A DNA stretch of 57,540 nt from NCBI RefSeq assembly GCF_003253995.1, contig NZ_QKZL01000022.1, positions 1 to 57,540 on the forward strand. The letters run 5' to 3'. Below, piece after piece: positions 7,823 through 32,231 of this stretch. Source of the stretch: Palleronia aestuarii. Its GTDB lineage: Bacteria; Pseudomonadota; Alphaproteobacteria; Rhodobacterales; Rhodobacteraceae. Under the pieces are notes generated by a model. It had not been told where the DNA came from and searched no databases. It was given only the letters and a program-made list of their open reading frames with translations. Position numbers and translations under genes: made by a program. Position 1 is the stretch's first letter; each line of letters begins with the position of its first letter.

Positions 7823-7839
7823 CTTAAGTTTGGCATAAG
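7823..7839 (+). promoter_or_regulatory. Candidate PmrA/QseB-type box upstream of dsbD
   Basis: CTTAAG-TTTGG-CATAAG: two hexamers in direct repeat with 11-bp phasing, 23 bases before the dsbD start. It is the weakest of four similar sites in the window (others 13374, 30143, 32215). It fits the YTTAAK-N5-YTTAAK pattern known for PmrA/QseB response regulators. Confidence 0.5.
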
Positions 7840-7862
7840 GTGGCGCCGGCATCGCCGGGGCC

Positions 7863-9635
7863 ATGATACGCTCACACGCACTCCCCGCCCTGGTCGCACT
7901 TCTACTGTCCCTCGCGTCGGGTGTGGCCACCGCGCAGTCCGGCACGCCCTTGCACCCCTCAGAGGCTTTCCGGATCTCCGCGGAAAAGACCGACGACGGG
8001 ACAGTGCTGCACTTCGACATCGAAGAGGGGTACTACCTCTACCGCGAGTATCTTGCCGCGGAAGAACCCGGCGGAGAGATTCCACTCGAGACGATGCCCG
8101 GAACGGTCAAGGAGGACCCGACTTTCGGGCGAATGGAAGTCTACTACGACGAGGCGTCGGCACGACTGCCAGCGTCGGGCGGACCGGTAACGGTAACCTG
8201 GCAAGGCTGTCAGGATGGCGGGATTTGCTATCCTCCGCAGACGGCGTCGCTGAACGAGATCCCCGCTTCAGCGGGCGGTGCCGGAACCGCAGGTGATGCC
8301 TTTGTCGAAGGTGCCGGTGGGCCCACCGCCGTTCAGGAGCCATCGGGCATCCAGCTCGCAGAGGAAGCCGGCCTGGCGGGTCTTGATGGCGGCGCCGGCC
8401 TCGTCGTTCTGACGTTCTTCGGTCTGGGCCTCCTCTTGTCGGTCACGCCCTGTGTGTTTCCCATGTTCCCCATCGTGGCCGGCATGGTCACGGGACAGGG
8501 CAAGGATCTGACCATGGGGCGCGGCATTGCGCTGACCGGGGCCTACGTGATTGCGATGGCGGCGGCGTTCGGCCTTTTGGGCGTCGCGGCGGCGTGGTCC
8601 GGGCAGAACTTGCAGATGGTGCTGCAATCTCCCTGGGCGGTCGGCAGCATCGCGGCGCTCTTCGTCGTCTTCTCGCTCGCCATGTTCGGAGCCTTCGACA
8701 TTGCGCTGCCCGGGGCGCTGACCAGCCGGGTGCAGCGGCTCGGCAGTCGCGGCGGATCGCTTAGCGGAGCGGCGGGACTGGGCTTTACCTCGGCGTTGAT
8801 CATCGGGCCTTGCGTCACCGCGCCGTTGGCCGGCGCGCTCCTCTACATCGCGCGGACGGGCGACGTGTTGCTTGGCGCCGGCGCACTCTTCGCGCTTGGG
8901 CTGGGGCAGGGCATGCCGCTCCTGGCGATCGGAGCCTTCGGGTCGCAGATCCTGCCGCGTGCGGGCGTATGGATGGAGCGCGCCAAGCAGGCGTTCGGCG
9001 TGGTCTTTCTCGGCCTTGCGATCTGGATGATCGGGCGGATCGTTCCCGGGCCGGCGGTCCTGGCGCTCTGGTCCGTGCTCCTGATCGGAACAGGGGTGTT
9101 CCTCGGCGGGCTCGATTGCCCGGCACCGGGCGCCGGCCCGGTTCGGCGCGGGGCGACAAGTCTTGGCGTGCTGGCGCTGCTGGCCGGGGCGCTGCAGGGG
9201 ATCGGCGCGGCGTCCGGAGCGAGCGATCCGCTGCGTCCGCTCGCGGCCTTTGCCGGAGAGGCAGCAGCCGACGATCCCAAGGCGGTGTTTGCCCGGGTTA
9301 CCGACAGGCCGGGGCTGAAGGCGGCGCTTGCCTCCGCAAGCGGTCCCAGCATGGTCTACGTCACCGCCGAGTGGTGTACGTCCTGCCGGGTGATCGAACG
9401 CCATGCCTTGGCCAATCGAGATGTACAGGCGGCCCTGGCGAGCCTTGGAGCGGTCGAGGTGGACGTCTCCAAGTTCACTGAAGAGTCGCAGGCGCTCCTC
9501 GACGAGTTGGGATCGGTGGGACCGCCCACGATGGTGTTCCTCGATGGATCACGGCGCGAGGTGCCGGATACCCGCCTTGTGGGCGAGGTCGGTGCATCCG
9601 AGGTAATGACTTCCCTTGCTGAGATGACCCGATGA
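7863..9635 (+). CDS. dsbD: Thiol:disulfide interchange protein DsbD
   Basis: Carries electrons from cytoplasmic thioredoxin across the inner membrane to periplasmic thiol proteins. All three classical modules are present in 590 residues. There is a signal peptide (1-24) and an N-terminal periplasmic domain with its Cys pair C116/C122 (GCQDGGICYPP). An eight-helix membrane domain follows with C197 (VTPCVFPMFP) and C317 (IGPCVTAP). The C-terminal thioredoxin domain has C505-C508 (EWCTSC). It is first gene of an operon and overlaps the next gene as ATGA. A candidate response-regulator box lies just upstream. The TlpA-like, transpeptidase and DsbA-like products downstream are plausible clients. 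Confidence 0.93.
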   Translation: MIRSHALPALVALLLSLASGVATAQSGTPLHPSEAFRISAEKTDDGTVLHFDIEEGYYLYREYLAAEEPGGEIPLETMPGTVKEDPTFGRMEVYYDEASARLPASGGPVTVTWQGCQDGGICYPPQTASLNEIPASAGGAGTAGDAFVEGAGGPTAVQEPSGIQLAEEAGLAGLDGGAGLVVLTFFGLGLLLSVTPCVFPMFPIVAGMVTGQGKDLTMGRGIALTGAYVIAMAAAFGLLGVAAAWSGQNLQMVLQSPWAVGSIAALFVVFSLAMFGAFDIALPGALTSRVQRLGSRGGSLSGAAGLGFTSALIIGPCVTAPLAGALLYIARTGDVLLGAGALFALGLGQGMPLLAIGAFGSQILPRAGVWMERAKQAFGVVFLGLAIWMIGRIVPGPAVLALWSVLLIGTGVFLGGLDCPAPGAGPVRRGATSLGVLALLAGALQGIGAASGASDPLRPLAAFAGEAAADDPKAVFARVTDRPGLKAALASASGPSMVYVTAEWCTSCRVIERHALANRDVQAALASLGAVEVDVSKFTEESQALLDELGSVGPPTMVFLDGSRREVPDTRLVGEVGASEVMTSLAEMTR

Positions 9636-10450
9636 ACGCCGTGCAGATCGGCCCGCTCCTGTTCGATGGCGCCCGCTTCACCGCGATCATAGCGGCCCTG
9701 GCCTTCGCGGTTACAGCCGGGATCGTCTCCTGGTGGTACGCGCGCCGAGGAATGGAGACCCGTGTCCCGGTGTTCGCCCTGATCGTTGTGTGGATCGTGG
9801 CGGCGCGAGTAGGGTTCGTGGCGATAAATTGGGAGACCTTCGCCGCGCATCCGCTCGAGGCCTTCGCCCTGTGGCAGGGAGGCTTCTCGGCCCGTGCCGG
9901 AACGATCGGCTTCGCGGTCGTGGCACTGGCCGCCATCCTTTCGCGGCCCGGGACCGTCGCGCCGATCCTCATAGGAGCGGGTGTGGCGGTCCTGGCCGCG
10001 AATGCGACCGAGTTCGCCCTCCGGGACGGGTCCGCCGCGACCCTGCCCGGGACCGCCTTCTCCGCCTACGAGGGGGCGCCGGTGACCCTGTCGGATCGGA
10101 ACGGTACGCCGCTTGTCGTGAATCTCTGGGCCACGTGGTGCCCGCCCTGCCGGCGGGAGATGCCGATGATGTTAGAGGTCGCGGGCCAGGCTGAGGGCAT
10201 CGACGTGGTTTTCGCCAACCAGGGCGAGACCCCGCCGCAGATCGCAAGTTTCCTCGACGAGACGGGCTTGGACGGCGACGGCATCGTGTTCGATCCAGAC
10301 GGCCAGCTTCTGGGCGGGCTTGGGGCCATGGGTCTGCCAACGACGCTCTTTTTCGACGCCCAGGGGAGCCTTGTCTCCGCCCATACTGGAGAGATTTCCC
10401 GTGCGGCCTTCACCTCGGCCATCGAGGACCTTGGGGGTAAGGTTCGATGA
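9632..10450 (+). CDS. TlpA-like thioredoxin fused to a membrane domain
   Basis: 272 residues. About five hydrophobic segments fill residues 15-130 (IIAALAFAVTAGIVSWWYA ... PILIGAGVAVLAANATEFA), similar in pattern to the membrane part of prolipoprotein diacylglyceryl transferase-like fusions. A periplasmic thioredoxin fold follows with active site WCPPC (C170, C173) and the cis-Pro loop GLPTTLFF. It likely receives electrons from DsbD and reduces periplasmic thiols; its client could be the transpeptidase encoded next. Coupled by ATGA overlap to dsbD and to the following gene. Catalysis by the membrane part is not expected, since no Lgt signature was seen. Confidence 0.85.
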   Translation: MNAVQIGPLLFDGARFTAIIAALAFAVTAGIVSWWYARRGMETRVPVFALIVVWIVAARVGFVAINWETFAAHPLEAFALWQGGFSARAGTIGFAVVALAAILSRPGTVAPILIGAGVAVLAANATEFALRDGSAATLPGTAFSAYEGAPVTLSDRNGTPLVVNLWATWCPPCRREMPMMLEVAGQAEGIDVVFANQGETPPQIASFLDETGLDGDGIVFDPDGQLLGGLGAMGLPTTLFFDAQGSLVSAHTGEISRAAFTSAIEDLGGKVR

Positions 10451-11172
10451 CAAGGGTTTCTCTGGCATTCGCGTTTCTTCTCGCCCTCGGGGCCTGTGCG
10501 GCGCCGCCCCCGGTGGACACGACCCGGATCGCACCACCCCCTCCTCAATTCGATCCCGAACTTTCCCGCATGTACGGTGCAGTCGCGGACCGCGAGGTCG
10601 CCGTGCCGGCGGTGCCGCCTCGATACCTTTCGCAACGCAACAAGCGCCAGCGCGTCGATTACTGGTCGGACGAACCGCCCGGTACCATCGTCGTCGATCC
10701 CTACGAGCGGTTTCTCTACCTCGTGCAGGAGAACGACACCGCGCTGCGCTACGGCATCGCCGTGGGCGAGGCGGGACGCCAATTCTCCGGCGAAGCGACG
10801 ATCCCCTACCAACGGGACTGGCCCTCCTGGACACCGACGAGGAACATGATCGAGCGCGAACCGGAGGTTTACGGGCCATTCGCCGGCGGGCAGGACGGTA
10901 GTCTCGAGAACCCTCTCGGAGCCCGTGCCCTCTACCTGCATCGCGGCGGGGAGGACACGCTTTACCGCATCCACGGCACATCGCAGCCCTGGTCCATCGG
11001 GCAGGCCGCGTCGTCGGGCTGCATCCGCCTCTACAATCAGGACATCATCGATCTGGCCGACCGGGTACGGAGCGGAACTAAGGTCGTGGTGCTCACCCAA
11101 GCGCAATCGGGGCAGGGCACCCGCCTGCCCGGAAGTCTTCCCACACCCTCTCTCGGAACGGAGCTTTACTGA
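10447..11172 (+). CDS. L,D-transpeptidase (YkuD domain) lipoprotein
   Basis: Forms 3-3 cross-links in peptidoglycan or attaches proteins to it, in the periplasm. 241 residues. The leader FLLALGAC is a lipobox with lipidated Cys about residue 18. The YkuD domain spans ~75-225, with the catalytic block HGT...SSGCIRLYN, nucleophile C192. Such single-Cys enzymes need a reduced nucleophile, which fits the operon with DsbD and TlpA. It overlaps the previous gene (ATGA) and shares a TGATG junction with the next. Confidence 0.9.
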   Translation: MTRVSLAFAFLLALGACAAPPPVDTTRIAPPPPQFDPELSRMYGAVADREVAVPAVPPRYLSQRNKRQRVDYWSDEPPGTIVVDPYERFLYLVQENDTALRYGIAVGEAGRQFSGEATIPYQRDWPSWTPTRNMIEREPEVYGPFAGGQDGSLENPLGARALYLHRGGEDTLYRIHGTSQPWSIGQAASSGCIRLYNQDIIDLADRVRSGTKVVVLTQAQSGQGTRLPGSLPTPSLGTELY

Positions 11173-11777
11173 TGCATCTGAGCAGACGCAGTCTCATCGG
11201 CGCGGCTGGGGCAGCCCTCGCCCTGCCATCGATCGTCCGTGCGCAAGACCGTCAACTGACGGTCGAGGAAGTCCTCTACGATACCGACGCGCCGGTCCTG
11301 GCCAATCCCGAGGGCGATGTCACGGTGGTGGAGTTCTTCGACTATCAATGTCCCTACTGCAAGCGGGCGCATCCGATGCTGATGGACGTCACAGCCCGTG
11401 ACCCCGGTGTCCGTCTCGTTCTGAAGGATTGGCCGCTCTTCGGTGCGCCATCGGTGCGCGCCAGCCAACTCGCCCTCGGCGCGGTGGAGCTCGGAGCATA
11501 CGGGGCCGTGAACGAGGCCTTGATGGCGACCGAGGGACGCCTCAGCATCGAGACCGTCGAGGAGACGGTGGGATCGGAAGTGGCGGCCGAGGCAGCGATG
11601 ACGTCCTACCGCGATGCTCGAACGAAGTGGGACGGCCTCATGAGCCGCAACCAGATGCAGGCTGCCGCCTTCGGCTTCCAGGGAACGCCTTCCTTCGTCA
11701 TAGGAACCACGCTCTTTGGCGGGATGATCGATCGCGACACGCTGGACGCCGCTATCCGCGAAGCACGAAAGGCCTGA
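11172..11777 (+). CDS. DsbA-family thiol:disulfide oxidoreductase
   Basis: 201-residue periplasmic oxidoreductase. It has a Tat-like or Sec leader (SRRSLIGAAGAALALPSIVRA), a DsbA fold with active site CPYC (C60, C63) in FFDYQCPYCKRAH, and a cis-Pro loop GTPSFVIG near residue 177. This is the 27-kDa outer-membrane protein/Com1 type often annotated as DsbA-like. Its start codon overlaps the stop of the transpeptidase. With DsbD as electron source it could act as an isomerase or reductase rather than an oxidase; that is inference. Confidence 0.9.
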   Translation: MHLSRRSLIGAAGAALALPSIVRAQDRQLTVEEVLYDTDAPVLANPEGDVTVVEFFDYQCPYCKRAHPMLMDVTARDPGVRLVLKDWPLFGAPSVRASQLALGAVELGAYGAVNEALMATEGRLSIETVEETVGSEVAAEAAMTSYRDARTKWDGLMSRNQMQAAAFGFQGTPSFVIGTTLFGGMIDRDTLDAAIREARKA

Positions 11778-11780
11778 TCC

Positions 11781-13361
11781 ATGGTACGAACATCGAAGTA
11801 CCGGCTGATACGGAACCTGACCGTTTTTGGAATGCTCGCCGCCGGTTCCACCGCCGTGATGGCTGAGGAGCGCAGTCTCACAATCCTGCATACGAACGAC
11901 ATCCATGGCCGATATGCGGCTTTCGAGGTTGCACCCGGAAACGCCACTTCGCAGACGGGCGATCCGGGCCGGGATCCGGAGGAGTTCGATCGCTCCGGTG
12001 AGATTGGCGGCTTTTCCCGACTGGCGACCAAGGTACGGCAGGTTCGGGAACGGCATGATGCGGAGAATGTCCTCCTCGTCGATGCCGGCGATACGTTCAG
12101 TGACGACCTTGTCGGCAACGAGACCGAAGGTGAAGCAATCATTACCCTCATGAATGCCGTGGGGTATAATTTCATGGCGCTCGGGAACCACGATTTCGAC
12201 TACGGCCTGGAACGAACGCGCGAACTCGAGACATTCGCCACCTTCCCGATGCGTGCCGCCAACATACTTGAGGACGACCAACCGGTCTTCGGAAAGCCCT
12301 GGCAGGTGTTCGAGCGGGCAGGGATGCGGATTGCGGTCGTCGGCATCGGCTATCACAATACCGATCAGACCAGCGGCGCCAGTAACATACGCGGATTGTT
12401 CTTCACCGACGGGATTGCGGCGGTCGAAGACCTCCTGCCGGAAATGCAGGAGGCATCCGACATCGTGGTCGCCATTTCCCATCAGGGCACGAAGGCGGAT
12501 CGCTTGCTTGCCTCGCGCGTGGACGGGATCGACGTGATTGTCGGCGGTCATTCGCACGACAGGTTGCAGCCCCCTGAGAAGATCGAGGGCACCTGGATCG
12601 TTCAGGCTCTCGCCGATGCGGCGATGCTGGGTGAGCTGACGCTCGTGGTCGACGAAGCGAACCGCCTGCGTCGTGTCGAGGGGGCCGTCCATCTACTCTG
12701 GGCGGACGAAATCGAGCCCGACCCTGAGATCGCCTCCCTCGTTACCGATCTTGCCGAGCCATTTGCGGACGCGCGCGATACGATCCTTACGGAGAGCGTC
12801 GATCGTATCGGGCGGCAATACCGCAGCGCCAGTCCGTTCGACACGCTCGTCGGCGACATCCTGCGCGACCATACCGGGGCGGACATCGCGATGATGCCGG
12901 GCGTCGGTTACGGGCTTTCGTTTGGTCCCGGGCCGGTGACGCGCGGAGCACTTTATACCCTGCTGCCGCATCCCGCCAAGCTGGTGACCTTCGAGATGAG
13001 AGGGGAAGATATCGTGGCTGTACTGGAGCAGAGCGCCACGAACCAGAGTCCGGTCGACCCGCAGGACACGGTCGGCGGGCTGGTCCAGACATCCAATCTT
13101 GGATGGACCGTCGATCTGACGCGACCCGTCAGCGCGCGCATCTCCGATGTGACGATCGAGGGCCGGCCGATCCAGATGGATGAATGGTACCGCGTCGCGA
13201 CCAATTCGGGGATGGCCAACGGTCTGCACCGGTACGACTTTTCGGACATACGCGAGAAGACGGTCCACGAAGTGTCTGTCACCAGTGTCGTGGAGGACGA
13301 GCTCGCGCGGCGTGAGAGCATCACGGCCCCACCGACGGACCATGTCAAACTGATCCGATGA
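11781..13361 (+). CDS. 5'-nucleotidase/metallophosphatase, exported
   Basis: Two-domain calcineurin-type phosphohydrolase (526 residues) with signal peptide (LTVFGMLAAGSTAVMAEE). Metal-ligand motifs appear in order: HTNDIHGRY, DAGDTFSD, GNHDFDYG, SHQG, GGHSHD. A C-terminal 5'-nucleotidase substrate domain follows (SPFDTLVGDILRDHTGAD ... TNSGMANG). It releases phosphate from nucleotides or related substrates in the periplasm. It is in the same superfamily as SoxB, but the Sox-type context and motifs belong to the separate soxB at 38-40 kb. Last gene of the dsbD operon, three bases after the previous stop. Confidence 0.9.
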   Translation: MVRTSKYRLIRNLTVFGMLAAGSTAVMAEERSLTILHTNDIHGRYAAFEVAPGNATSQTGDPGRDPEEFDRSGEIGGFSRLATKVRQVRERHDAENVLLVDAGDTFSDDLVGNETEGEAIITLMNAVGYNFMALGNHDFDYGLERTRELETFATFPMRAANILEDDQPVFGKPWQVFERAGMRIAVVGIGYHNTDQTSGASNIRGLFFTDGIAAVEDLLPEMQEASDIVVAISHQGTKADRLLASRVDGIDVIVGGHSHDRLQPPEKIEGTWIVQALADAAMLGELTLVVDEANRLRRVEGAVHLLWADEIEPDPEIASLVTDLAEPFADARDTILTESVDRIGRQYRSASPFDTLVGDILRDHTGADIAMMPGVGYGLSFGPGPVTRGALYTLLPHPAKLVTFEMRGEDIVAVLEQSATNQSPVDPQDTVGGLVQTSNLGWTVDLTRPVSARISDVTIEGRPIQMDEWYRVATNSGMANGLHRYDFSDIREKTVHEVSVTSVVEDELARRESITAPPTDHVKLIR

Positions 13362-13373
13362 GGCTCAACGGCC

Positions 13374-13390
13374 CTTAAGGCTCGCTTAAG
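13374..13390 (+). promoter_or_regulatory. Candidate PmrA/QseB-type box upstream of a transpeptidase pair
   Basis: CTTAAG-GCTCG-CTTAAG, a perfect direct repeat with 11-bp phasing 43 bases before the start at 13434. It matches the ccoN-upstream site (read toward ccoN) at 16 of 17 positions. Confidence 0.65.
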
Positions 13391-13433
13391 CCGGGGGGTC
13401 GAGACGGCTCGGAGCACCAGAGCGGAGAGCAGA

Positions 13434-13976
13434 ATGACAGTTTACCTTTCGCGGCGGCGCTTCCTCGCGACGACGTTGGTCGGCCTCGCGACACCCGCCA
13501 TCGCACGTGCGTCCGCGACCCGCCGCAACGCGTCGAGCTTCCGCATGCAGGATTGGCGGGAGCATTTCGACGATCTGGGCGTGGGCACGATCATCGCCGA
13601 CACGCGATCCCGTGCCGTGCATTTCTGGAACGGCGACGGGAGCGACTATCGCGTCTACCCCACGTCGGTGCCGACATCGGACGAACTGACCAAGCGCGGC
13701 TATACCGAGATCGTGCGCAAGAAGGTCGGTCCGGACTGGACGCCCACGCCGTCGCAAAAGGAGCGGTTCGGCTGGGAATACATGCCGCCGGGGCCCGACA
13801 ACCCGCTCGGGACGCACGCGATGTATCTCTCGTGGCCCGCCTACCTGATCCACGGAACGCATGATACGCGCAAGATCGGCCGGCGATCTTCGGACGGCTG
13901 CATCGGTCTCTACAATGCCCAGATCGAGGAGCTTTATGCCCTTTGCCCGGTCGGGACACAGGTCCGGGTGATCTGA
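13434..13976 (+). CDS. L,D-transpeptidase (YkuD domain), Tat-exported
   Basis: 180 residues. The leader LSRRRFLATTLVGLATPAIARA is twin-arginine type. The YkuD domain has GTHAMYL, HGTHDTRKIG and the catalytic SSDGCIGLYN with nucleophile C156. The residue normally Arg after Cys-Ile is Gly here, so substrate handling may differ from the lipoprotein paralogue. It follows its own candidate response-regulator box and is two bases from the next transpeptidase gene. A folded Tat substrate with an active-site Cys would leave the cytoplasm already reduced. Confidence 0.88.
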   Translation: MTVYLSRRRFLATTLVGLATPAIARASATRRNASSFRMQDWREHFDDLGVGTIIADTRSRAVHFWNGDGSDYRVYPTSVPTSDELTKRGYTEIVRKKVGPDWTPTPSQKERFGWEYMPPGPDNPLGTHAMYLSWPAYLIHGTHDTRKIGRRSSDGCIGLYNAQIEELYALCPVGTQVRVI

Positions 13977-13977
13977 G

Positions 13978-14565
13978 ATGACTATTGCCCGCCGTCGATT
14001 CCTTACTGGCGTGGCCGCGCTTGCCTCGGCACCTCTGGCCCTTCCCGCGCAGACCTTCGCACCGGTCATGGAGCCGCAGGTCGTCGCGTTGCGCCATCCG
14101 CTGCCGCCCGGTGAGGTCCATGTCTTCCCCGATCACTTCCGGCTCTACTGGACGCTGCCGGAGGGGCGGGCCTGGGTCTATCCGATCCGCGTCGGACGCG
14201 ACGATCTCTACGAGGCGGGAGAATTCTATGTGGGCGCCAAGAAGGAATGGCCGTCTTGGATGCCGACGCCGGGTATGATCGAGCGCGAGCCGGAGATTTA
14301 CTCTCAATATGCGGAGGACGGGATGGAGGGCGGCCCTGGCAATCCCCTGGGGGCCCGCGCCCTCTACCTCTTCCAGGAGGGGCGCGGCGACACCTTCCTG
14401 CGCATTCACGGAACGAACGATCCGAACAGCATTGGTCGGGCGGTTTCGAACGGCTGCGCGGGTCTGACGAATGCCCACATCGTAAAACTCTACGACCAGG
14501 TCCCCCTTAACACCCGCGTGATCCTCTATCCCAAGATGGGATCCTCCGCCTTCACGGCAGGATGA
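13978..14565 (+). CDS. L,D-transpeptidase (YkuD domain), third paralogue
   Basis: 195 residues with leader ARRRFLTGVAALASAPLALP, probably Tat-dependent. The YkuD domain shows WPSWMPTPGMIEREPEIY and GNPLGARALYLF, also seen in the 10447 gene, and catalytic block HGTNDPNSIG ... SNGCAGLTN with C160. It is a closer paralogue of the lipoprotein enzyme than of its direct neighbour, but again lacks the usual Arg after the nucleophile segment. Co-transcribed with 13434. Confidence 0.88.
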   Translation: MTIARRRFLTGVAALASAPLALPAQTFAPVMEPQVVALRHPLPPGEVHVFPDHFRLYWTLPEGRAWVYPIRVGRDDLYEAGEFYVGAKKEWPSWMPTPGMIEREPEIYSQYAEDGMEGGPGNPLGARALYLFQEGRGDTFLRIHGTNDPNSIGRAVSNGCAGLTNAHIVKLYDQVPLNTRVILYPKMGSSAFTAG

Positions 14566-14614
14566 GCAGGCAACCCCGGAACTCCGCCGCGCGGCATGTC
14601 GCGAGTGCCGGCGG

Positions 14615-15416
14615 ATGGATGCGTCGAGCATGAATGATCTTGGAGCAATCCAGTACGGTCTTGGTGCAGTCTTGGGCATCCTGATCGGTGTAAAGCTCGG
14701 GCTCTTCGGTGGCGGCGGATCGATCCTTGCCGTTCCTCTGCTGATTTATCTCGTGGGCGTCCCGTCCGCGCATATGGCGATAGGAACGAGTGTGTTGGCC
14801 GTCGCCGCGAATGCCCTCGCAAGCCTTGCGAACCACGCCCGGCACAGTTCGATTCGCTGGGCCGCCGCATTCGCCTTCTCGGCTGCCGGCATTCTCGGAG
14901 CCTGGGGTGGATCCAGCCTTGGAAAAAGCTTTCGATGGCGATCGCCTTCTATTCTTCTTCGCGCTTCTCATGATGGGCGTAGCCATCGCGATGTTTCTGA
15001 AGCGCGATACGTCGGGTGGAGCCGCGGCGAAACGGAAGGCCGGCCGTTGGGCAATCGCCGTCGCGGGCGGTGTGACGGGCCTTCTGTCCGGCTTTTTCGG
15101 GATCGGCGGCGGTTTCCTGATCGTGCCCGCGCTCATGTGGACAACGGGAATGCCGATACTCGATGCGGTGGGGACGTCGCTCTTTGCGGTCGCATCCTTT
15201 GGCCTGACCACGGCGTCCAACTACGCATTCTCGGGCTTCGTCGACTGGCCGCTGACCGCGGCGCTCGTCGCCGGCGGAGCCGCTGGGAGCGTTTTGGGAG
15301 AACGAGGAGCCCGCTACCTGTCGACGAAGGATGGTCGGCTCGACATCGGGTTCTCCGCTCGGGTCTTCGTCGTTGCCATCTACATGGCCATCGAAAGCCA
15401 GTATGCCGTCTCGTAG
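14615..15416 (+). pseudogene. TauE/SafE-family anion exporter with a frameshift
   Basis: The first frame (to about 14925) gives the N-terminal half of a TauE/SafE transporter (LGAVLGILIGVKLGLFGGGGSIL, AIGTSVLAVAANALASLANH). The second half continues one frame over (DRLLFFFALLMMGVAIAMFL, GLLSGFFGIGGGFLIVPAL, GTSLFAVASFGLTTASN). The two join if one A is removed from the five-A run at 14923-14927 (LGK then AFDGD). Together they make a normal ~265-residue, 8-helix protein that would export sulfite or organosulfonates. It could be a true mutation, a sequencing error in a homopolymer, or slippage. The start could be 14615 or 14630. Confidence 0.75.
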
Positions 15417-15456
15417 CAGGAATGAGGAGCGATTGCATTTCTGCGCCGGACACCTG

Positions 15457-16377: not shown

Positions 16378-16487
16378 CCGTTATCGATACAGTCGATCAC
16401 AACGCGCTGTAAATTCAATTTCACCGCAGGAAGTGGTTATCCTAATAATTGCGGATATTGCCGTCAGGGTCCGAGGAGGAGAAGACC

Positions 16488-18182: not shown

Positions 18183-18233
18183 CCTCTACGCCGGCGGCAT
18201 GGCCGCCGGTCCTCCCGAACCACCGAGTACCCC

Positions 18234-22619: not shown

Positions 22620-22696
22620 GACATGCCCCCGTTCTATCGCCCGCGCTTGCACCAGCCGGGATTGCCGGCTACATATGAGTAACAACTAAATAAGTC

Positions 22697-22715: not shown

Positions 22716-22726
22716 TGGATGCAGAC

Positions 22727-23026: not shown

Positions 23027-23146
23027 GGCCCTCCCTGCCCGATGCCCCTGATGGCCGAAATGTTCGCTTTTCCGGCACGGTCTGCAAACTTCAGGCCCGA
23101 ACTGTTCTTCGCAAGATGTCCAATGTGCAAGAAATCCGTGTTCCAA

Positions 23147-25360: not shown

Positions 25361-26502
25361 TTCGGTGCGGCGGGATCGGGGACGACGGTCCCTGTCGCGG
25401 AAGGCGTGTCGGCCGGGTCGCCCGAGACGCCGGCACCGAGAACGGTGCCGTCGACTTCGGCCCCGTAGAAGCCGGGATCGTCGGAATGGAACCGCTCCTG
25501 CGCCTCCGCCACCGTCAATCCGCCCTGCGACTGGCGCGGGTCGGCGGGGCGCTCCTGACTGTTGATCCAGGCAGCCACGTCCCATGCCTCTTGTGGCGAC
25601 AGCGAATAGGGCAAGCCGAGCGGCATGTTGGCGTAGATGAACCCGGCCGCCGTGTTCACGCGGTGCATCCCGGCCCCCCAATTGTAGGCGTCCGACCCCC
25701 AGAGCGGCGGAAAGACGTAGCGGCCGTTTATGTCCTGCCGGCCCTGGCCGGTCTCGCCGTGGCAGACCGAACACCGCGCGGCGAAGACCTCCCGCCCGCG
25801 CTCGCGATCGTAGCCGGCTTCCGGCATGTCGGGCGTCGGGTATCCGCGCCCTGGAAGTTCGACATTCAGGGGCGCACCGGTCGCGAGCCAGTAGAAGTAA
25901 CTCTCGAGATCCTTATAGATCTGATGCCCCTTGGGCGGCGCGGCGCCGGATGGGGAGGCCTGGGCGTTCATGGAGTAGGTGAAGCATCCGTTCACCCGAT
26001 CCTCCATCGTGTTGATCATCTTGTTCTTGCCGCGCCAGGCGGGATATTCGCCCGCCGCGGCCCACATCGGCGCGGCATTTGCAAGACGACCGGCATCGAG
26101 GTGGCAATTGGCGCAGGCCAGGGAATTGCCGACATACTCGGTGGCGTTCGCCGCCGGATTGAGGAAAATTTCGCGTCCCCGCCGCACCGACTGGCCGAAC
26201 TCGTCATCCGGGATCGATGACGGATCGGGCGGCTGGAAATATCCCTCCGCTCCGATCGGCACCGCGGGGGCATGCGGCGCGTTCTCCTCCGCGCCAAGAT
26301 TGGCAACCTCGTCGTCGAAAGTTGCCCGCGCTTCTCGGCCGGCGCGGGTGGCCGCCTCGCCCGCGCTTTCGGTTTCGGCGGTTCCGGCGATCCGCGCGAG
26401 CGTGTTGTTGCGGTAGAGCCCGCCGCCCACGACAACCAGGGCCGCGACAGCGAGGACGATAAGGATTGCCCTGGAGACAGTCGTGCGGTGCCTGTCACTC
26501 AT
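25357..26502 (-). CDS. Dihaem c-type cytochrome, TsdA-like (thiosulfate dehydrogenase family)
   Basis: 381 residues with one N-terminal membrane anchor (AILIVLAVAALVVVGGG). Haem sites are CANCH at 130-134 and CSVCH at 244-248. C173 in EDRVNGCFTYSMN lies 39 residues after the first haem His, matching the TsdA layout where a Cys is the distal ligand of the catalytic haem. TsdA joins two thiosulfates to tetrathionate. Membrane anchoring and position inside the oxidase operon suggest direct electron delivery to the oxidase. It could instead be a plain electron carrier; activity is inferred. Confidence 0.75.
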   Translation of the reverse strand: MSDRHRTTVSRAILIVLAVAALVVVGGGLYRNNTLARIAGTAETESAGEAATRAGREARATFDDEVANLGAEENAPHAPAVPIGAEGYFQPPDPSSIPDDEFGQSVRRGREIFLNPAANATEYVGNSLACANCHLDAGRLANAAPMWAAAGEYPAWRGKNKMINTMEDRVNGCFTYSMNAQASPSGAAPPKGHQIYKDLESYFYWLATGAPLNVELPGRGYPTPDMPEAGYDRERGREVFAARCSVCHGETGQGRQDINGRYVFPPLWGSDAYNWGAGMHRVNTAAGFIYANMPLGLPYSLSPQEAWDVAAWINSQERPADPRQSQGGLTVAEAQERFHSDDPGFYGAEVDGTVLGAGVSGDPADTPSATGTVVPDPAAPK

Positions 26503-27220
26503 CTTGCGGCTCCCGGGTCAGCGATACGCGATCGCGCGGTTGAGGTGGGGGAAGTTCGGCCAGGTAATCCGACACGGACTTTATATCGCTGGCCGAAAGT
26601 CCCTTTGCGACGGAATGCATGAGGCCGAGCGGCGAGTTGGCCCGGTCGCCGGACTTCCAGGCGGAGAGCTGGCGGTCGATATAGGCGGCGTGCTGTCCCG
26701 CGATCGGCGGGAAGGCCTGCTCGACACCCCAGCCGGACGGGCCATGGCAGGAGAAGCAGGAAGGGACGTCGACCGTCCAATCCCCTTCAAGCGCCAGCGT
26801 CCGTCCGCGCGCGAGATCACCGCCCAGTGTGGCCCCGGCCGTCGGCTGCCGAATCTGCGCCGCGTAATAGGCACCGAGCGCCGCCATCTGCGTCGCGTCG
26901 AGCCGGTTCGCCACATACTGCATGTTGTCGTTGAGGCGCGCGCCCGCGGCATAGTCATGGAGTTGCTTGACGATATAGCCCGCCGGCAGACCGGCGAGGG
27001 CCGGGATCGGCCCCGCGCCTTGGCCGTTCTCTCCGTGGCAGGACGCACAGGCCCAGGCGCCGTCAGTACCCTCACCCTCAACAAGCGGGATCGCGATCAA
27101 CGGGTCCGCCTCCGCTGCGGCATCCGCGTAGGTCTCTGCGGCGCTCCAGTCCGGCGGTTCATCCTGCGCCAGGGACGCCAGCGGGACGAAAGCCACGCAG
27201 ATTGCGGCGCGCAGGATCAT
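26495..27220 (-). CDS. Cytochrome c4-like dihaem cytochrome
   Basis: 241 residues with signal peptide (ILRAAICVAFVPLASLA). Two similar c-type domains carry CASCH (GENGQGAGPIPALAG) and CFSCH (GPSGWGVEQAFPPIAGQ), each followed by distal-Met regions (NDNMQYVANR, GLMHSVAKGL). The duplicated fold is typical of cytochrome c4. It would pass electrons within the periplasm to the cbb3-like oxidase. Start overlaps the ccoP stop as ATGA; its end overlaps the TsdA-like start by 8 bases. Confidence 0.88.
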   Translation of the reverse strand: MILRAAICVAFVPLASLAQDEPPDWSAAETYADAAAEADPLIAIPLVEGEGTDGAWACASCHGENGQGAGPIPALAGLPAGYIVKQLHDYAAGARLNDNMQYVANRLDATQMAALGAYYAAQIRQPTAGATLGGDLARGRTLALEGDWTVDVPSCFSCHGPSGWGVEQAFPPIAGQHAAYIDRQLSAWKSGDRANSPLGLMHSVAKGLSASDIKSVSDYLAELPPPQPRDRVSLTREPQDE

Positions 27221-27855
27221 CGGTCGGCCTCCGGTGCGGGGGCGTTTGTGGGTATGGCGAAGAGTTCTTCGAGCTCCGAACCGCCATCGAGCGGCAAGGT
27301 CGCGGCGTCGCCAAGTCCGGCACGGCGGGCCGCGACCTGATCGGGAGAGATCTCGTCGGCGCTGTTCGACCATGACGCCCGAATGTAGGTCAGGATCCTG
27401 GCGATCTGCCCGTCATCGAGCGTCGGACCGAAGGTGGGCATGCGGCCGGTATAGATCTCTCCCTTCACCTCGATCGGGCCAGCGATGCCGCGCAGCAGGA
27501 TGGTGATGGGAACATCGGCGTCGGCCGTGACGTAGCGCGATCCGTCGAGGGGCGGGATCGCGGCGCGGATGCCGGACCCGTTCGCCTGATGGCAGGTGGC
27601 GCAGTAATCGCCGAAAAGCGTAGCGCCGTCCGCCGACTCCATGATCGTCTGGTCGGAGCCCGGATCGGCCACGTTCTTTGCGGTCCCCGTTTCGGAGGCC
27701 TGCGCATCGAGCCAGAGCGTGACCGCGCCCCAGACGACGAGCGCGAGGACGACGGCGATCAGCGGCCAGGGGATCGGATTGTCGCGCTCGTGCAACTCGA
27801 ACGCCGGGTCCCGGTCTTGCGCCGAGGCGCTGAAATCGTCGGGTAGCCTGCTCAT
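27217..27855 (-). CDS. ccoP: Cytochrome c subunit, CcoP-like but monohaem
   Basis: 212 residues. Cytoplasmic N-terminus, one membrane helix (WPLIAVVLALVVWGAVTLWL, ~33-52), then a single class I cytochrome c domain with CATCH (FGDYCATCHQANGSG) and GRMPTFGPTL for the distal Met. Ordinary CcoP has ~290 residues and two haems; here one cytochrome domain is absent. The dihaem cytochrome c4 encoded next may replace it. Start by ATGA overlap with ccoO, with GGAGACGTCGGG upstream. Confidence 0.8.
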   Translation of the reverse strand: MSRLPDDFSASAQDRDPAFELHERDNPIPWPLIAVVLALVVWGAVTLWLDAQASETGTAKNVADPGSDQTIMESADGATLFGDYCATCHQANGSGIRAAIPPLDGSRYVTADADVPITILLRGIAGPIEVKGEIYTGRMPTFGPTLDDGQIARILTYIRASWSNSADEISPDQVAARRAGLGDAATLPLDGGSELEELFAIPTNAPAPEADR

Positions 27856-28475
27856 CCCGACGTCTCCTCGCCCTCGACGAAGCCGTTGTCGCGGAGCGTT
27901 GGCTCGTCGGCCGGATAGGTTCGGTCGAGCGAGAGCAGGTAGTCCACGAGATCGAGGGCAGATTGTCTCGCCACGACGACCTCCCCGTCCGGTCGCATGC
28001 CCTCGGGCACCTGAACTTCGACATCGCCGTCTTCCACCTCGGGCTTGGTCTCGAAGAGGAAGGGGAAGCCCGGCATGATCGAGGTCGGCGAGATCGCGCG
28101 CGGCTGGTAAAGATGCGTCAGGTGCCAGGCACGACTCGGCATGCGGGCGCCGATGTTCAGAAGATCGGGGCCAGTCCGCATTGTGCCGAGCAGATGCGGC
28201 GCGTCGTAGACGTAATCGGCCGCGGTCGAGGCGCGCCCCCAGCCACGCTGCACGTCGGGCCCCTGGGCCGGGCTGCGCGGCTGCTGCGAGTGGCAATAGA
28301 CGCAGCCCAGATCGACGTAATGCGCGCGGCCCCGGAGCTCGGCCTCCGTGTAGGGGGCCAGACCCTCGGGCGCCGCGATCGTTCTGATCTCGGCCGCCGG
28401 GACGATCACGAGGAACACGGTGGCGAAGGCCAGGATGCCGGCGGAGAGGAGGATGAGGGGAACGAAGCGGTTCAC
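27852..28475 (-). CDS. ccoO: Cytochrome c subunit II, CcoO-like
   Basis: 207 residues, one N-terminal membrane helix, one haem at GCVYCHSQQPRSP, and the distal ligand region SIMPGFPFLF. This is the CcoO arrangement (canonical GCYYCHSQ...SIMPGYPWL). The start is GTG at 28475 (VNRFVPLILLS), preceded by GAGGGACCTGCC, ten bases after the ccoN stop. An ATG start would force an Arg/Pro-rich extension that overlaps ccoN. Confidence 0.87.
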   Translation of the reverse strand: MNRFVPLILLSAGILAFATVFLVIVPAAEIRTIAAPEGLAPYTEAELRGRAHYVDLGCVYCHSQQPRSPAQGPDVQRGWGRASTAADYVYDAPHLLGTMRTGPDLLNIGARMPSRAWHLTHLYQPRAISPTSIMPGFPFLFETKPEVEDGDVEVQVPEGMRPDGEVVVARQSALDLVDYLLSLDRTYPADEPTLRDNGFVEGEETSG

Positions 28476-28485
28476 GGCAGGTCCC

Positions 28486-30078
28486 TCACTCGGCCGGGGC
28501 GAGCGTGTCGGCGGCCGGTGCCCGTGCAGCGCCATATCCGATGAGGATGGCCCCGAGATTCACGGCGAAGAGGACGTGACCGAGTGTCATCAATGCCCCG
28601 CCCACGGATCGTCCCTGCAGGTAAGGGATGGTCAGCTCCATGCTCTCCATCCAGTCGCGCGAGGCGTCGAGCATCGCGAGGCCCTGGAGCCAGCCGCCGA
28701 TGGTCAGGGAGAGGAAGTAGATCGCGAAGCCGATCGCCACGAGCCAGAAGTGCCAGACCATGAGGGAGGGCAGGGGCCATACCCGCTCGACCAAGCGGGG
28801 GATCACGTAATAGAGCCCGCCGAACATCACGAGGCTGACGAAGCCGTAGGCGCCGAGATGCGCGTGGGCCACGGTGTAATGGGTGAAGTGGGTGACGGTG
28901 TTCACGCTGCGCACCGCCTCGAGCGAGCCCTGAAACGACGCGGCCGTGTAGAGCAGGGCCCCAAGCGCCACGAAACGCAGCGGGATGCTGGCGCGCACGA
29001 CGTCGAGATTGCCGAGGCTCAGCGTGTGCTGATTGATCGCCACGGCGATGACGGGGACGAACATCATAACCGATTGCACGACGGAGAGCGTCACGACCCA
29101 GGTCGGGACGGGACCGCCGATGAGATGGTGCATGCCAACCTGGCTGTAGAAGAGTGCGAGTGCCCAGAAGCCGAGGAGCGAAAGGCGGTAGGAATAAATC
29201 GGTTTTCCGATGATGCGGGGAATGAAGTAATAGGCCGCGCCGACACCGAGCGGGGTTAGCCAGAGCCCGAGCACGTTGTGCGCGAACCACCAGTTGACGG
29301 TTGCCTGCTGCGCGCCGACGTGGAGACCGGGTATGTTGGCGACGAGAAACAGGGTCGGGAACCAGATCAATGCGCCAATATAGTACCACCCAGTGACGTA
29401 GATGTGGTGCACCTGCCGATGGCGCGCCGTCACGAGGAGCGGGATCGCGAGACAGGCACCGCCGGCGGCGAGCAGAATGTCGATCTGCCATGGGATCTCC
29501 AGCCATTCCAGACCGTCGGTCCAGCCGATATCGATCGCCACAGCCCCGAGCGCGACGCCGATCGTCCAGAGAGCCGCGCCGAGCGCGGCCAGTCCTGCCA
29601 GCCGCAGATGCGTGCCGAGGATCGTCGGCACGAGCCACAGCGCCATGCCGATGCCGACGAGGCTGAGCCAGCCGTAGGCGACGAGGTTGAGATGGACGGC
29701 GCGCATCCGACCGAAGGTGAGTGGCGCGGCGCCGTCGAGCCAGTCGGGCAGGTGAAGCTTCATCGAGGCGACGAGGCCGAAGGCGGAACCCGCCAGCATG
29801 TAGAGCGTTCCGGCCGAAAAGATTGCCAGGAGGAGCATTCGTGCGAACGGCGAAACGATCGGTTCGCCGGTTAGGTCGGAGGCCTGCGAGGCCTTTTCGG
29901 GCGACACGCTCGGATCGTCGATCCCGGTTCCCCGCGCATCCTCAGCGGCGAAGATTGTCCGGGCGTCGTTTTCGTCGAAGCTCATCTGGTTGCGTGCGAT
30001 TGCCCAGATCAGAACCGCCAGCGCCGCCAAGGAGACCAGAAAACTGACGAGAACGAGCGTGCCGATCGTGAACCCCAT
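28486..30078 (-). CDS. ccoN: cbb3-type oxidase catalytic subunit CcoN with a CcoS-like N-terminal domain
   Basis: 530 residues. Residues 1-50 (a helix, then IWAIARNQMSFDENDARTIFAAED) resemble the small assembly protein CcoS, apparently fused to the catalytic subunit. The remainder is a 12-helix haem-copper oxidase subunit I: RAVHLNLVAYGW (low-spin haem), AHNVLGLWLTPLGVGAAYYFIP (CuB His plus the cbb3-type Tyr), VGMHHLIGGPVPTW (CuB His pair) and THYTVAHAHLGAYG (haem His residues). It reduces oxygen to water. No separate ccoS or ccoQ was found. A candidate response-regulator box is 65 bases upstream. Confidence 0.9.
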   Translation of the reverse strand: MGFTIGTLVLVSFLVSLAALAVLIWAIARNQMSFDENDARTIFAAEDARGTGIDDPSVSPEKASQASDLTGEPIVSPFARMLLLAIFSAGTLYMLAGSAFGLVASMKLHLPDWLDGAAPLTFGRMRAVHLNLVAYGWLSLVGIGMALWLVPTILGTHLRLAGLAALGAALWTIGVALGAVAIDIGWTDGLEWLEIPWQIDILLAAGGACLAIPLLVTARHRQVHHIYVTGWYYIGALIWFPTLFLVANIPGLHVGAQQATVNWWFAHNVLGLWLTPLGVGAAYYFIPRIIGKPIYSYRLSLLGFWALALFYSQVGMHHLIGGPVPTWVVTLSVVQSVMMFVPVIAVAINQHTLSLGNLDVVRASIPLRFVALGALLYTAASFQGSLEAVRSVNTVTHFTHYTVAHAHLGAYGFVSLVMFGGLYYVIPRLVERVWPLPSLMVWHFWLVAIGFAIYFLSLTIGGWLQGLAMLDASRDWMESMELTIPYLQGRSVGGALMTLGHVLFAVNLGAILIGYGAARAPAADTLAPAE

Positions 30079-30142
30079 GACCCCTCCGGATACGGCCGAC
30101 CCGAGAAGCTTCTGGCCGACCGTCTGGAGACGACATCCGAAG

Positions 30143-30159
30143 CTTAAGCGAACCTTAAG
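30143..30159 (-). promoter_or_regulatory. Candidate PmrA/QseB-type box upstream of ccoN
   Basis: Read toward ccoN: CTTAAG-GTTCG-CTTAAG, a perfect hexamer repeat with 11-bp phasing. It sits directly after the histidine-kinase stop codon and 65 bases before the ccoN start. It differs by a single base from the site at 13374. Confidence 0.65.
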
Positions 30160-30160
30160 C

Positions 30161-31510
30161 TCACGCGGGTGACGGCATTTCCCGGGGAATGGTCAGACGT
30201 ACCATCTGGCCTCTCTCCGAGACCGTGAAGTCAATCGTCCCTGCCATTCGCTCCGTCGCGGCCGCCACGATCGACAATCCCAGCCCGCTTCCGGTACTGC
30301 CGGGTCTTCGCCCCCGGACAAAACGGTCGGTAACATGGGATCGGATGTCGTCGGGAATACCGGCTCCCTCGTCCTCCACCGTGATCCGGCATGTCCGAGG
30401 ATCACAGTCCGAGCGGATGGTCACTTCCGTGTCGACAGGACTGGCGAGAATGGCGTTCTCGACGACGTTGCGCACAGCGGCGTGGAAAAGAAACCTCGGC
30501 AGGCAAACGTCGTCGGTACTGTTCATCGAAAGCGACAGGGCGACGCCGCACTGATCTGCCAGGTGGCTCAATTCCGCTGTCACATCTTTCAGGATGCTGC
30601 TGACCGCGAAGGTCTGTTGCGGCAGATCTTCGCCTTCCACGGCCGCGAGTTCCAGAAGTTGCCTGACGAGTCGATCGGTCCGGGAGATGGAGGTCTCAAT
30701 CTCGCGCAACGCCGCGACGCGGGTCGCATCGTCCGGGGCAATCTGTGCGATCTGCGCTTGCGTCTTAAGACCCGCGAGCGGCGTCTTCAATTCGTGCGCG
30801 GCGAAGGCGGTGAAGTCGCGCTCCGTCTCCCGGGCGCGGGCCACCCGCTCGAAGAGCGCATTCAGGGCATTGCGGACGGGGCGGATCTCGGAGGGGACGG
30901 GACCCGTAGGAAGCGGGCTAAAATCAGTCGGCTGCCTGGCGCGAAGAACCTGAGCCAACCGATCGAGAGGGCGCAGGCCACTGGCGACTCCAATCAGGAT
31001 GATGACCGCCAAAATAGGGAGAACGACCGCCGCCGGCAGAACGAACCCCTCGATGACGTCCCGGACCAGCCTGTCCCGGACGGCGACGCTGTCGCCGACC
31101 ATCACGCGGGCCCCGATGCGCTCGTTGACGATCGAATAGACCCGCCACCGCTCTCCGTTGATCGTGGAATAGGAGTATCCCTGGTCGACCGCATCCGTCA
31201 GCCGGCCGGGCGGAGCCCCGCCTGATTGGCCGATCAATGTCCCGGAAAGAGACCAGATTTGGCATGAAAGCTGGTGGGAATATGCGCTTCCGCCCGGCAG
31301 GGCCTCGGCAAACGCGCCACTTGCATTTGTGACCTCGATGCGCCCGTCGGAGAGGAGCGAGGAGACCATGCGCGCAGATTCCGCGAGGCGGGCATCGAGT
31401 ACCTGCTCGACCTTGCCCCGGGTTGAGTTCTCGATCCAGATTACGGCGGACAGCCAGACGACACCGGTGGCGAGAACGAGGGCGAGGATCAGGCGCAGCC
31501 GGATCGACAT
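30161..31510 (-). CDS. Sensor histidine kinase, QseC/PmrB-like
   Basis: 449 residues. Two membrane helices (LILALVLATGVVWLSAVIWI; FVLPAAVVLPILAVIILIGVA) flank a ~130-residue periplasmic domain, followed by a HAMP linker. The H-box is DFTAFAAHELKTPLAGLKTQAQ (the QseC-type AAHEL(K/R)(S/T)PL), and the ATP-binding boxes are NVVENAI, DEGAGIP and GSGLGLSI. It autophosphorylates and passes phosphate to the regulator encoded upstream, whose stop codon overlaps its start. The signal is not evident; the neighbours suggest redox, metal or envelope stress. Confidence 0.92.
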   Translation of the reverse strand: MSIRLRLILALVLATGVVWLSAVIWIENSTRGKVEQVLDARLAESARMVSSLLSDGRIEVTNASGAFAEALPGGSAYSHQLSCQIWSLSGTLIGQSGGAPPGRLTDAVDQGYSYSTINGERWRVYSIVNERIGARVMVGDSVAVRDRLVRDVIEGFVLPAAVVLPILAVIILIGVASGLRPLDRLAQVLRARQPTDFSPLPTGPVPSEIRPVRNALNALFERVARARETERDFTAFAAHELKTPLAGLKTQAQIAQIAPDDATRVAALREIETSISRTDRLVRQLLELAAVEGEDLPQQTFAVSSILKDVTAELSHLADQCGVALSLSMNSTDDVCLPRFLFHAAVRNVVENAILASPVDTEVTIRSDCDPRTCRITVEDEGAGIPDDIRSHVTDRFVRGRRPGSTGSGLGLSIVAAATERMAGTIDFTVSERGQMVRLTIPREMPSPA

Positions 31511-32178
31511 CAGGAGCCGTTTTCCAAAGCAAGTCGATAGCCGACACCGCGCACGGTCTCGATGAACCGCGCGCCGAGCTTGCCGCGCAATTTATGGATG
31601 TGGACCTCTACCGCGTTACTCTCGATCTCCTCGTTCCACCCGTAAAGCCGCTCCTCCAACTCCGCCTTCGAACGTATCGTACCCGGACGTTCCAGGAGAT
31701 ATTGCAGCAGAGCGAACTCGCGAACGGAGAATTTGATTGCTTTCCCTTGGTGCTCGCCAGACATCGTGTCCGGAAAGGCGACGAGCCCATTCCACTCGAT
31801 GGACGATCGCGCGCGTCCCTCGCCCCTTCGGAGCAGCGCCCTGAGGCGCGCCGACAACTCCGCAAGGTCGAACGGTTTCCCCATGTAGTCGTCCGCTCCG
31901 GTATCAAGGCCGGCAATCCGATCCGCCACTTGATCGCGGGCCGTCAGCAGGAGAACCGGGCAGGTGTCGCCGTTTCGCCGGATGCCATGGAGGAGATCCA
32001 GGCCCGACCCGTCCGGTAAGCCAATGTCGAGTACGATCGCCAGGAAGCCTCCCGCTTCGATCGCGATGCGGGCGTCCGAAAGGGAGGCAACGGCCTCGGG
32101 AGAAAAACCGCCGATCTTCAGACCGACCACGAGCCCGTTCATCAAGACGGGATCGTCTTCGACGATGAGAACGCGCAT
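31510..32178 (-). CDS. OmpR-family response regulator, QseB/PmrA-like
   Basis: 222 residues. The receiver domain has acidic pocket VEDD, phospho-acceptor Asp in IVLDIGLPDGSGLDLL (about residue 51), and Thr/Lys of LLTARDQ and GKPFDLAEL. The C-terminal winged helix (FSVREFALLQYLLERPG ... SNAVEVHIHKLRGKLG) is of the QseB/PmrA/TctD subgroup. That subgroup binds CTTAA-type direct repeats, and exactly such repeats precede this gene and three other operons in the window. First gene of the pair and probably autoregulated. Confidence 0.92.
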   Translation of the reverse strand: MRVLIVEDDPVLMNGLVVGLKIGGFSPEAVASLSDARIAIEAGGFLAIVLDIGLPDGSGLDLLHGIRRNGDTCPVLLLTARDQVADRIAGLDTGADDYMGKPFDLAELSARLRALLRRGEGRARSSIEWNGLVAFPDTMSGEHQGKAIKFSVREFALLQYLLERPGTIRSKAELEERLYGWNEEIESNAVEVHIHKLRGKLGARFIETVRGVGYRLALENGS

Positions 32179-32214
32179 GGCGGTACCTCCAGCTCGAAGC
32201 GATGCCTCCCTATA

Positions 32215-32231
32215 CTTAAGCGAAGCTTACA
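32215..32231 (-). promoter_or_regulatory. Candidate PmrA/QseB-type box upstream of the response regulator
   Basis: Read toward the gene: TGTAAG-CTTCG-CTTAAG, 36 bases before the start. The second hexamer is perfect and the first is 4 of 6. Placement suggests autoregulation. Confidence 0.55.

Follow-up and report, generated by a model that had tools for sequence, protein, structure and literature searches.

A probable DsbRS-type two-component system in Palleronia aestuarii and its predicted regulon of thiol-reduction, L,D-transpeptidase and oxidase genes

The DsbRS two-component system of Pseudomonas aeruginosa is reported to be copper-sensing or copper-responsive and is tied to the dsbDEG genes (PMC10141476). 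Here we describe a histidine kinase and response regulator that are probably of this type, with the genes they would control, in a window of 57,540 nucleotides from Palleronia aestuarii that makes up one entire contig (1.27%) of a 4.54-Mb genome in 77 contigs. As in DsbRS, a cysteine-bearing kinase and its response regulator are linked to dsbD, TlpA/DsbE and DsbG/DsbA-type genes, and the candidate binding sites fit the DsbR consensus TTA-N8-TTAA. The window differs in its L,D-transpeptidase (LDT) genes, an operon of a ccoN-like oxidase gene with cytochromes and an ATPase, a SoxB-like gene and a box extended to CTTAAG-N5-CTTAAG. Two other described systems share features with the pair: PmrAB (BasRS) has the same EVHIHxLR recognition helix and a box in which 5 bp separate the CTTAAG-like half-sites, but the window pair is not its equivalog by score and differs from it in sensor residue and targets, whereas QseBC has the same 2CSK_N sensor domain and overall architecture but other targets, and the pair falls below its cut-offs too. 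For the target genes, the nearest parallel is in E. coli, where DsbD-DsbG supplies a periplasmic reductant alongside LDTs with an essential thiol such as YbiS (LdtB), and where DsbG looks after YbiS. These E. coli genes are not known to form a common regulon, whereas in the window their counterparts are encoded and boxed together. A further parallel is the ScsBC copper-tolerance thiol system, in which a DsbD-like protein and a DsbA/DsbC-like partner are linked to copper (PMC8900818); the window protein is a DsbD by NCBIfam. We are fairly confident that the window holds a DsbRS-type two-component system together with its regulon, consisting of three operons plus weak autoregulation.

Cys83, the sole cysteine before residue 321 of the window kinase, and Met48 are both present in 73 of 73 aligned orthologues (74 were collected and one was dropped for its length), whereas none of 17 outgroup kinases (from 23, six dropped for length) has a cysteine at the sensor position. 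In a kinase model (26 sequences, mean pLDDT 85), Cys83 falls within strand 81-87, whereas Met48 belongs to helix 3-54. The original DsbRS study (Yu et al. 2022, Sci. Bull. 67:198, doi 10.1016/j.scib.2021.03.003) is reported to give Cys82 as the sensor cysteine of DsbS, TTA-N8-TTAA as the DsbR consensus and a wide distribution for the system. That consensus fits the dsbD site of the window on one strand and the LDT and ccoN-like sites on both; the response-regulator site fits it on neither. Across a phylum-wide sample of 369 genomes we read 42 kinases (41 of 57 places plus one from a Cupriavidus plasmid, leaving out 15 lower-scoring places and the window's own), and Dsb-type neighbours stand beside 17 of 20 kinases with Cys83 vs 0 of 22 without it. 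At five loci of this sample dsbD-TlpA-dsbG is divergent from the regulator-kinase pair with a plus-strand TTA-N8-TTAA in between, a sixth locus (L327) has the motif on the other strand, and at least one plus-strand match occurs at 8 of 10 non-alphaproteobacterial Cys83 loci, Cupriavidus included, where 0.02-0.34 per locus would be expected. The boxed dsbD-TlpA-LDT-DsbA genes of the window are about 20 kb from the pair; in many relatives the dsb-type operon is directly divergent from it. Because the single periplasmic cysteine, the Dsb linkage and the architecture all match DsbRS-dsbDEG, the core of this regulon is already known, and the claim of the initial annotation that no described regulon has such content does not hold for that core.

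The same annotation had called the system PmrAB/QseBC-type. The regulator is indeed PmrA/QseB-like and the box is of the PmrA type, but the label fails as an identity. An ordinary PmrAB or QseBC orthologue with a lipid-A or quorum-type regulon, the neighbouring genes being incidental, would account for the best NCBIfam matches (PmrA, QseB and QseC), for the recognition helix and for the type of box. All three scores are nevertheless far below the cut-offs: 212.6 bits against 330 for PmrA (NF007928), 192.9 against 345 for QseB (NF007663) and 234.1 against 475 for QseC (NF007664). With Cys83 invariant here and missing from the 17 outgroup kinases, and with Dsb neighbours solely beside Cys83 kinases among the 42 read, we rejected plain PmrAB or QseBC and regard this explanation as very improbable.

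The evidence for a regulon begins with four 17-bp sites. They lie where the initial annotation had placed them, 23-64 bp upstream of start codons, within its range of 20-70 bases (Table 1). Exact CTTAAG-N5-CTTAAG occurs twice in the whole genome, both times in the window, before the LDT pair and the ccoN-like gene. Allowing one mismatch, three of four sites genome-wide are in the window (binomial 8e-6), and allowing two, 4 of 16 (binomial 4e-5). The window taken alone gives a modest signal, with 11 sites at up to three mismatches vs a mean of 4.7 after shuffling, a count reached in 2 of 100 shuffles. A reversed-pattern count (91 matches at two mismatches) was set aside as a control because its base order is different. 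The sole site outside the window with at most one mismatch (C10:20195) stands 49 bp 5' of a glycosyltransferase frame, and the frame preceding it is carA by eye; it was rejected as a conserved target.

Relatives tie the box to the pair. In a family sample of 198 genomes, the kinase is matched at E<=1e-40 in 18 and strongly (E<1e-98) in 9, the strong orthologues other than the window's own sharing 46-54% identity with it. An exact site is present in all 9 strong-kinase genomes vs 1 of the 189 others (Fisher 9e-15); in that exception, G194, it falls between LysR and acyl-CoA dehydrogenase frames, identified by eye. The motif thus stands above chance both in its own genome and across the family, and, as the initial annotation had supposed, it is conserved in relatives, being kept with the kinase and upstream of the orthologues of dsbD, the second LDT gene (LDT2), the regulator and the ccoN-like gene. 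Orthologues of dsbD (E<=1e-100) were found in 6 of the 198 genomes, all within the kinase-bearing nine, and in each of the six a box with no more than one mismatch lies 150 bp or less from the matched start; ccoN-like orthologues (E<=1e-120) were found in three, all kinase-bearing, and all three have an exact box within 150 bp. LDT2 serves as a control gene, as its homologues are widespread (183 of 198): close orthologues in 14 kinase-lacking genomes had no site with up to two mismatches in the 3-4 kb read around each, and neither did four second LDT2 copies in kinase-bearing genomes in the stretches read. For the second LDT2 copy of the window genome itself, the site seen has two mismatches and lies at a distance of ~1.3 kb. 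Within the genus (14 genomes), all three kinase-bearing genomes have sites before the regulator, dsbD and LDT2. Of the 11 kinase-lacking genomes, ten contain 0-2 sites when one mismatch is allowed, and the last (G010) contains 8, of which seven are copies of a single sequence, CTTAACGGTTCCTTAAG, scattered over several positions; this is probably a repeat or insertion sequence that has nothing to do with the regulator. Two genomes provide cases in trans: G080 has an exact box before LDT2, 388 kb from the kinase, and G116 has one between two LDT genes on a contig other than the kinase's.

Beyond the family, we fetched 80 loci of named relatives by their response regulator, of which 64 have a kinase that reaches 39% identity or more, 13 a more distant kinase and three no kinase match. 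Within 150 bp before the regulator, the box is exact in 50 of the 64, within one mismatch in 56 and within two in 61, and for the 13 loci with a more distant kinase the corresponding numbers are 1, 4 and 4. Forty arbitrary 20-kb stretches (800 kb) of kinase-negative family genomes gave no exact and no one-mismatch site and six two-mismatch sites, in a comparison whose matching is incomplete, these stretches being chromosomal and from one family and the test loci coming from several orders and from plasmids. Plasmid-borne pairs fit the same pattern: of 60 plasmid records with a kinase match at E<=1e-40, nine were fetched for a box check, with an exact regulator box in all nine, and four more were fetched besides; the weakest of the plasmid matches (~34% identity, Paraburkholderia) may be paralogues. 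Among 93 sequences, a biased sample because the loci were mostly picked by their regulator, 250 frames come after the 130 sites that have one mismatch or none, and 170 of these frames could be assigned: 61 to the regulator, 41 to dsbD, 30 to LDTs, 17 to DsbA-like proteins, 7 to the kinase, 5 to TlpA-like proteins, 4 to ccoN-like genes, 3 to SorA-like and 2 to SoxB-like proteins. Of the remaining 80, 35 form eight clusters that have no relative in the window, and 45 are singletons, of which many are probably not real genes. A DsbG gene of Pseudorhizobium (336 bits, cut-off 124) also has an exact box, and its Agrobacterium counterpart a box with one mismatch.

The form of the box is best read from these relatives. 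As CTTAAG is its own reverse complement, exact sites cannot separate a direct from an inverted repeat; in relatives, the sites of dsbD, LDT and DsbA-like genes have a gene-ward consensus near CTTAAGGCTGGCTTAAGGT, which favours the 11-bp direct repeat originally proposed for the four sites. Information per position is ~0.2-0.3 bits in the flanks, 0.75-1.06 in the spacer and 1.8-2.0 in the hexamers, the last value being inflated because the hexamers were selected. The recognition-helix residues of the regulator (S187, N188, E191, V192, H193, H195 and R198) are the same in 64 of 64 orthologues. For Klebsiella PmrA, the counterparts of H193 and H195 have been proposed as base-specificity residues, and two half-sites are described as bound head to tail (PMC3973317). 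The PmrA-type features (H193, H195 and N188 with a tandem CTTAAG-type box) are thus present but not specific, and as 16 more distant regulators share the helix, it is no marker of this clade.

Several observations weigh against the window pair as master of a DsbRS-type regulon. In a class-wide sample (289 genomes, sparse for the kinase, which two have), 25 of the 287 genomes without the kinase have an exact site, and boxes with up to two mismatches precede 9 of 22 regulators paired with Cys83-less kinases in the phylum sample. The motif alone is therefore not diagnostic, and box autoregulation may be general in the PmrA/QseB group (L318-L357). The regulator box of the window itself has two mismatches, no box within two mismatches precedes the regulator in 3 of the 64 named loci, and one kinase-bearing genome (G035) has a one-mismatch box at best. 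In three of the nine kinase-bearing family genomes (G116, G166 and G080), neither a Dsb nor an LDT gene is seen closer to the pair than ~30 kb, and the window operon encodes a DsbA-like protein and no DsbG, different from DsbRS. In the kinase tree all 27 Cys kinases lie on one side, but of a weak branch (49/4), with one origin in 45% of bootstrap trees; the alphaproteobacterial group (100/97) and the other group (99/99) are each firm. The incomplete matching of the control stretches belongs here as well.

Two alternatives draw on these points. Chance matches to a short palindromic motif could explain the scattered sites of the class-wide sample, but the genome-wide and family-wide counts, the positions of the sites and their conservation make chance barely conceivable as an account of the boxes in the window. 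Alternatively, an unlinked PmrA/QseB-like regulator could read the dsbD, LDT and ccoN-like boxes, the window pair controlling only itself; the similar boxes before other QseB-like regulators would suit this, but among family genomes lacking this kinase exact sites occur in that single genome of 189, and LDT2 has none in 14, and we consider this alternative highly unlikely.

Table 1. The two-component pair, its candidate boxes and the putative target operons, with positions in the window.
Feature	Coordinates	Strand	Evidence and remarks
Box, dsbD operon	7823-7839	+	CTTAAGTTTGGCATAAG; 1 mismatch; 23 bp 5' of ATG 7863
Box, LDT pair	13374-13390	+	CTTAAGGCTCGCTTAAG; exact; 43 bp 5' of 13434
Box, ccoN-like operon	30143-30159	-	Gene-ward CTTAAGGTTCGCTTAAG; exact; 64 bp 5' of 30078
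Box, response regulator (weak, autoregulatory candidate)	32215-32231	-	Gene-ward TGTAAGCTTCGCTTAAG; 2 mismatches; 36 bp 5' of 32178
DsbS-like histidine kinase	30161-31510	-	Pfam 2CSK_N, HisKA, HATPase; single periplasmic Cys83 and Met48 in 2CSK_N sensor
DsbR/PmrA-like response regulator	31510-32178	-	Pfam Response_reg and Trans_reg_C
dsbD, protein-disulfide reductase, gene 1 of operon 1	7863-9635	+	NCBIfam DsbD 451 bits (cut-off 330); Pfam DsbD_N, DsbD_TM, thioredoxin
TlpA/DsbE-like thioredoxin, operon 1	9632-10450	+	WCPPC; below cut-offs of named TlpA/DsbE models
LDT1, operon 1	10447-11172	+	Pfam YkuD 2.3e-21; lipoprotein-like by eye; catalytic SGCIRL Cys192
DsbA-like thiol oxidoreductase, operon 1	11172-11777	+	CPYC; Pfam DSBA, Thioredoxin_4; no NCBIfam match at 1e-10
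SoxB-like metallophosphoesterase, operon 1	11781-13361	+	Best NCBIfam SoxB 227 bits (cut-off 550); no Cys
LDT2	13434-13976	+	Pfam YkuD; catalytic DGCIGL Cys156
LDT3	13978-14565	+	Pfam YkuD; single Cys160, NGCAGL
CcoN-like haem-copper oxidase subunit, gene 1 of operon 3	28486-30078	-	Pfam COX1; CcoN (TIGR00780) 247 bits (cut-off 583)
Three c-type cytochrome genes, operon 3	27217-28296, 26495-27373, 25357-26502	-	Last is SoxA/TsdA-like
Heavy-metal P-type ATPase, candidate for the copper type, end of operon 3	23147-25774	-	ATPase-IB_hvy 407 bits (cut-off 346); copper subfamily 358 (below 397)

From the sites, their conservation and co-occurrence with the pair, the sensor cysteine and the gene content, all seen in the sequence, we infer how signal, binding, activation and the repair of LDT cysteines might be connected under control by the DsbRS-type pair. 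The kinase would sense copper(I) or another thiol-reactive agent through Cys83 and perhaps Met48 too, and the phosphorylated regulator would bind the 11-bp-phased tandem box, activating the three operons and, weakly, its own gene. Operon 1 would bring electrons to the periplasm and re-reduce attacked cysteines; operon 2 would provide LDTs, whose catalytic cysteine would be the vulnerable part; and operon 3 would provide a CcoN-like oxidase subunit, cytochromes c and a copper-type ATPase. The shared control of thiol reduction, three LDTs, a nucleotidase and an oxidase put forward by the initial annotation survives as the predicted content of the regulon, with the corrections that the 'nucleotidase' is SoxB-like and the 'ccoN' product a divergent relative of CcoN. 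In the phylum sample, LDT genes lie close to 8 of 10 Cys83 kinases from Alphaproteobacteria vs 0 of 10 others, the LDT queries being themselves alphaproteobacterial. SoxB-like genes resembling that of the first operon also follow boxes in two named loci (L091 and L109).

Copper would tie these parts together. LDTs are reported to be inhibited by copper (PMC12729407, which refers to Peters et al. 2018), and YbiS is named as one of the few proteins of the periplasm whose thiol is reduced (PMC9144841). Given the catalytic cysteine of LDTs and their reported inhibition, it would be coherent for a copper-sensing DsbRS to drive production of LDTs and of DsbD-fed reductases alike, and the third operon pairs a haem-copper oxidase subunit with a metal ATPase. 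The gene neighbourhoods point less clearly to copper. Counted in the 54 of the 64 named loci that span at least 18 kb, a copper-type ATPase gene (copA) is nearby in 7, vs 1 of the 40 controls, a weaker clustering than that of sulfur genes: Blh/SQR/YeeE-type genes lie within ~10 kb in 15, vs 0 of 40.

That count favours the main rival as to the signal, in which the regulon is the same but responds to reactive sulfur (sulfane sulfur, persulfide or sulfite) or to periplasmic thiol oxidation, Cys83 being persulfidated or oxidized and the targets serving to clean up and use reduced sulfur. The window as a whole is a sulfur-oxidation island, plasmids of Agrobacterium and Pseudorhizobium have BigR-Blh-YeeE-TauE genes next to the pair, and boxes precede a SorA-like sulfite dehydrogenase gene in Methylobacterium, a DsrE gene and SoxB-like genes. 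On the other side, the characterized homologue DsbRS reportedly senses copper, 39 of the 54 loci have no Blh/SQR/YeeE-type gene nearby, and neither the sox core nor the yeeE gene of the window has a box within two mismatches. We treat a sulfur signal as possible but rather unlikely. The Methylobacterium target had been considered as MsrP, a candidate we rejected on finding the protein SorA-like (472 bits, SorA cut-off 600).

Returning to the regulon of the DsbRS-type pair, the LDT genes, the ccoN-like operon and the sulfur-enzyme genes seem to have extended the known DsbRS core in Alphaproteobacteria. Within the searches made, which covered open papers, no description of such targets was found, and the original DsbRS paper may mention them. 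We lean, somewhat beyond even confidence, towards the view that in Alphaproteobacteria DsbRS became a peptidoglycan-protection regulon, with one cysteine sensor for LDTs and for the reductases that guard the LDT cysteine under copper or sulfane-sulfur attack, to which this lineage would have added a CcoO-less CcoN-like oxidase with cytochromes and a metal ATPase. A single regulon would offer a reason for bacteria to protect LDT cysteines, since the enzyme and the chain that repairs it would both be produced in answer to one signal. A puzzling list of genes would also become a copper/thiol response that can be tested, present across Alphaproteobacteria and often on plasmids, and the rarity of the box in this family allows targets to be predicted genome by genome, including those distant from the regulator.

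The third operon deserves separate comment. Its first protein misses both the score (583) and the CcoO partner expected of a cbb3 CcoN, no CcoO match being found among the scanned proteins of the operon, and the whole (23147-30078) is possibly an undescribed kind of terminal oxidase. Similar ccoN-like clusters are present in Paracoccus aminovorans (L076) and Pelagerythrobacter (L109). On the Pseudomonas fluorescens plasmid pPHE24 (L298), positions 5108-8316 encode TlpA, DsbG and two cytochromes c related to those encoded from 26495 and 25357 in the window; these genes adjoin an ArsR-family/YeeE/TauE cluster, and no kinase match was found in the 12.7 kb read. Thiol-repair and cytochrome genes thus also travel together without the kinase-regulator pair.

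Elsewhere in the window is a Sox sulfur-oxidation cluster (35182-45516) that the initial annotation had passed over. It includes soxB (811 bits, cut-off 550) and soxC (636, cut-off 420), with SoxX-like, SoxY, SoxZ, SoxA-type, SoxD-like and SoxV/W-like genes, YeeE and a thioredoxin. We rejected membership of the Sox core in the boxed regulon, as it lacks a site within two mismatches and has its own SoxV/SoxW-like reductant genes apart from the boxed dsbD. Between the LDT genes and the third operon, a TauE-like frame (14615-15616) matches about the first third of its Pfam profile, overlaps a LysR gene on the opposite strand (15457-16377) and is possibly broken or mis-framed. The frame at 16449-18182 fuses a TIGR01244 sulfur-transferase domain to an SQR-like flavoprotein and adjoins genes for a SulP protein and a Blh-type dioxygenase. 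At the contig end (52018-57449), TniQ, TniB and a sub-threshold Mu-transposase match mark a Tn7/Tn5053-like element, in keeping with mobility of the island.

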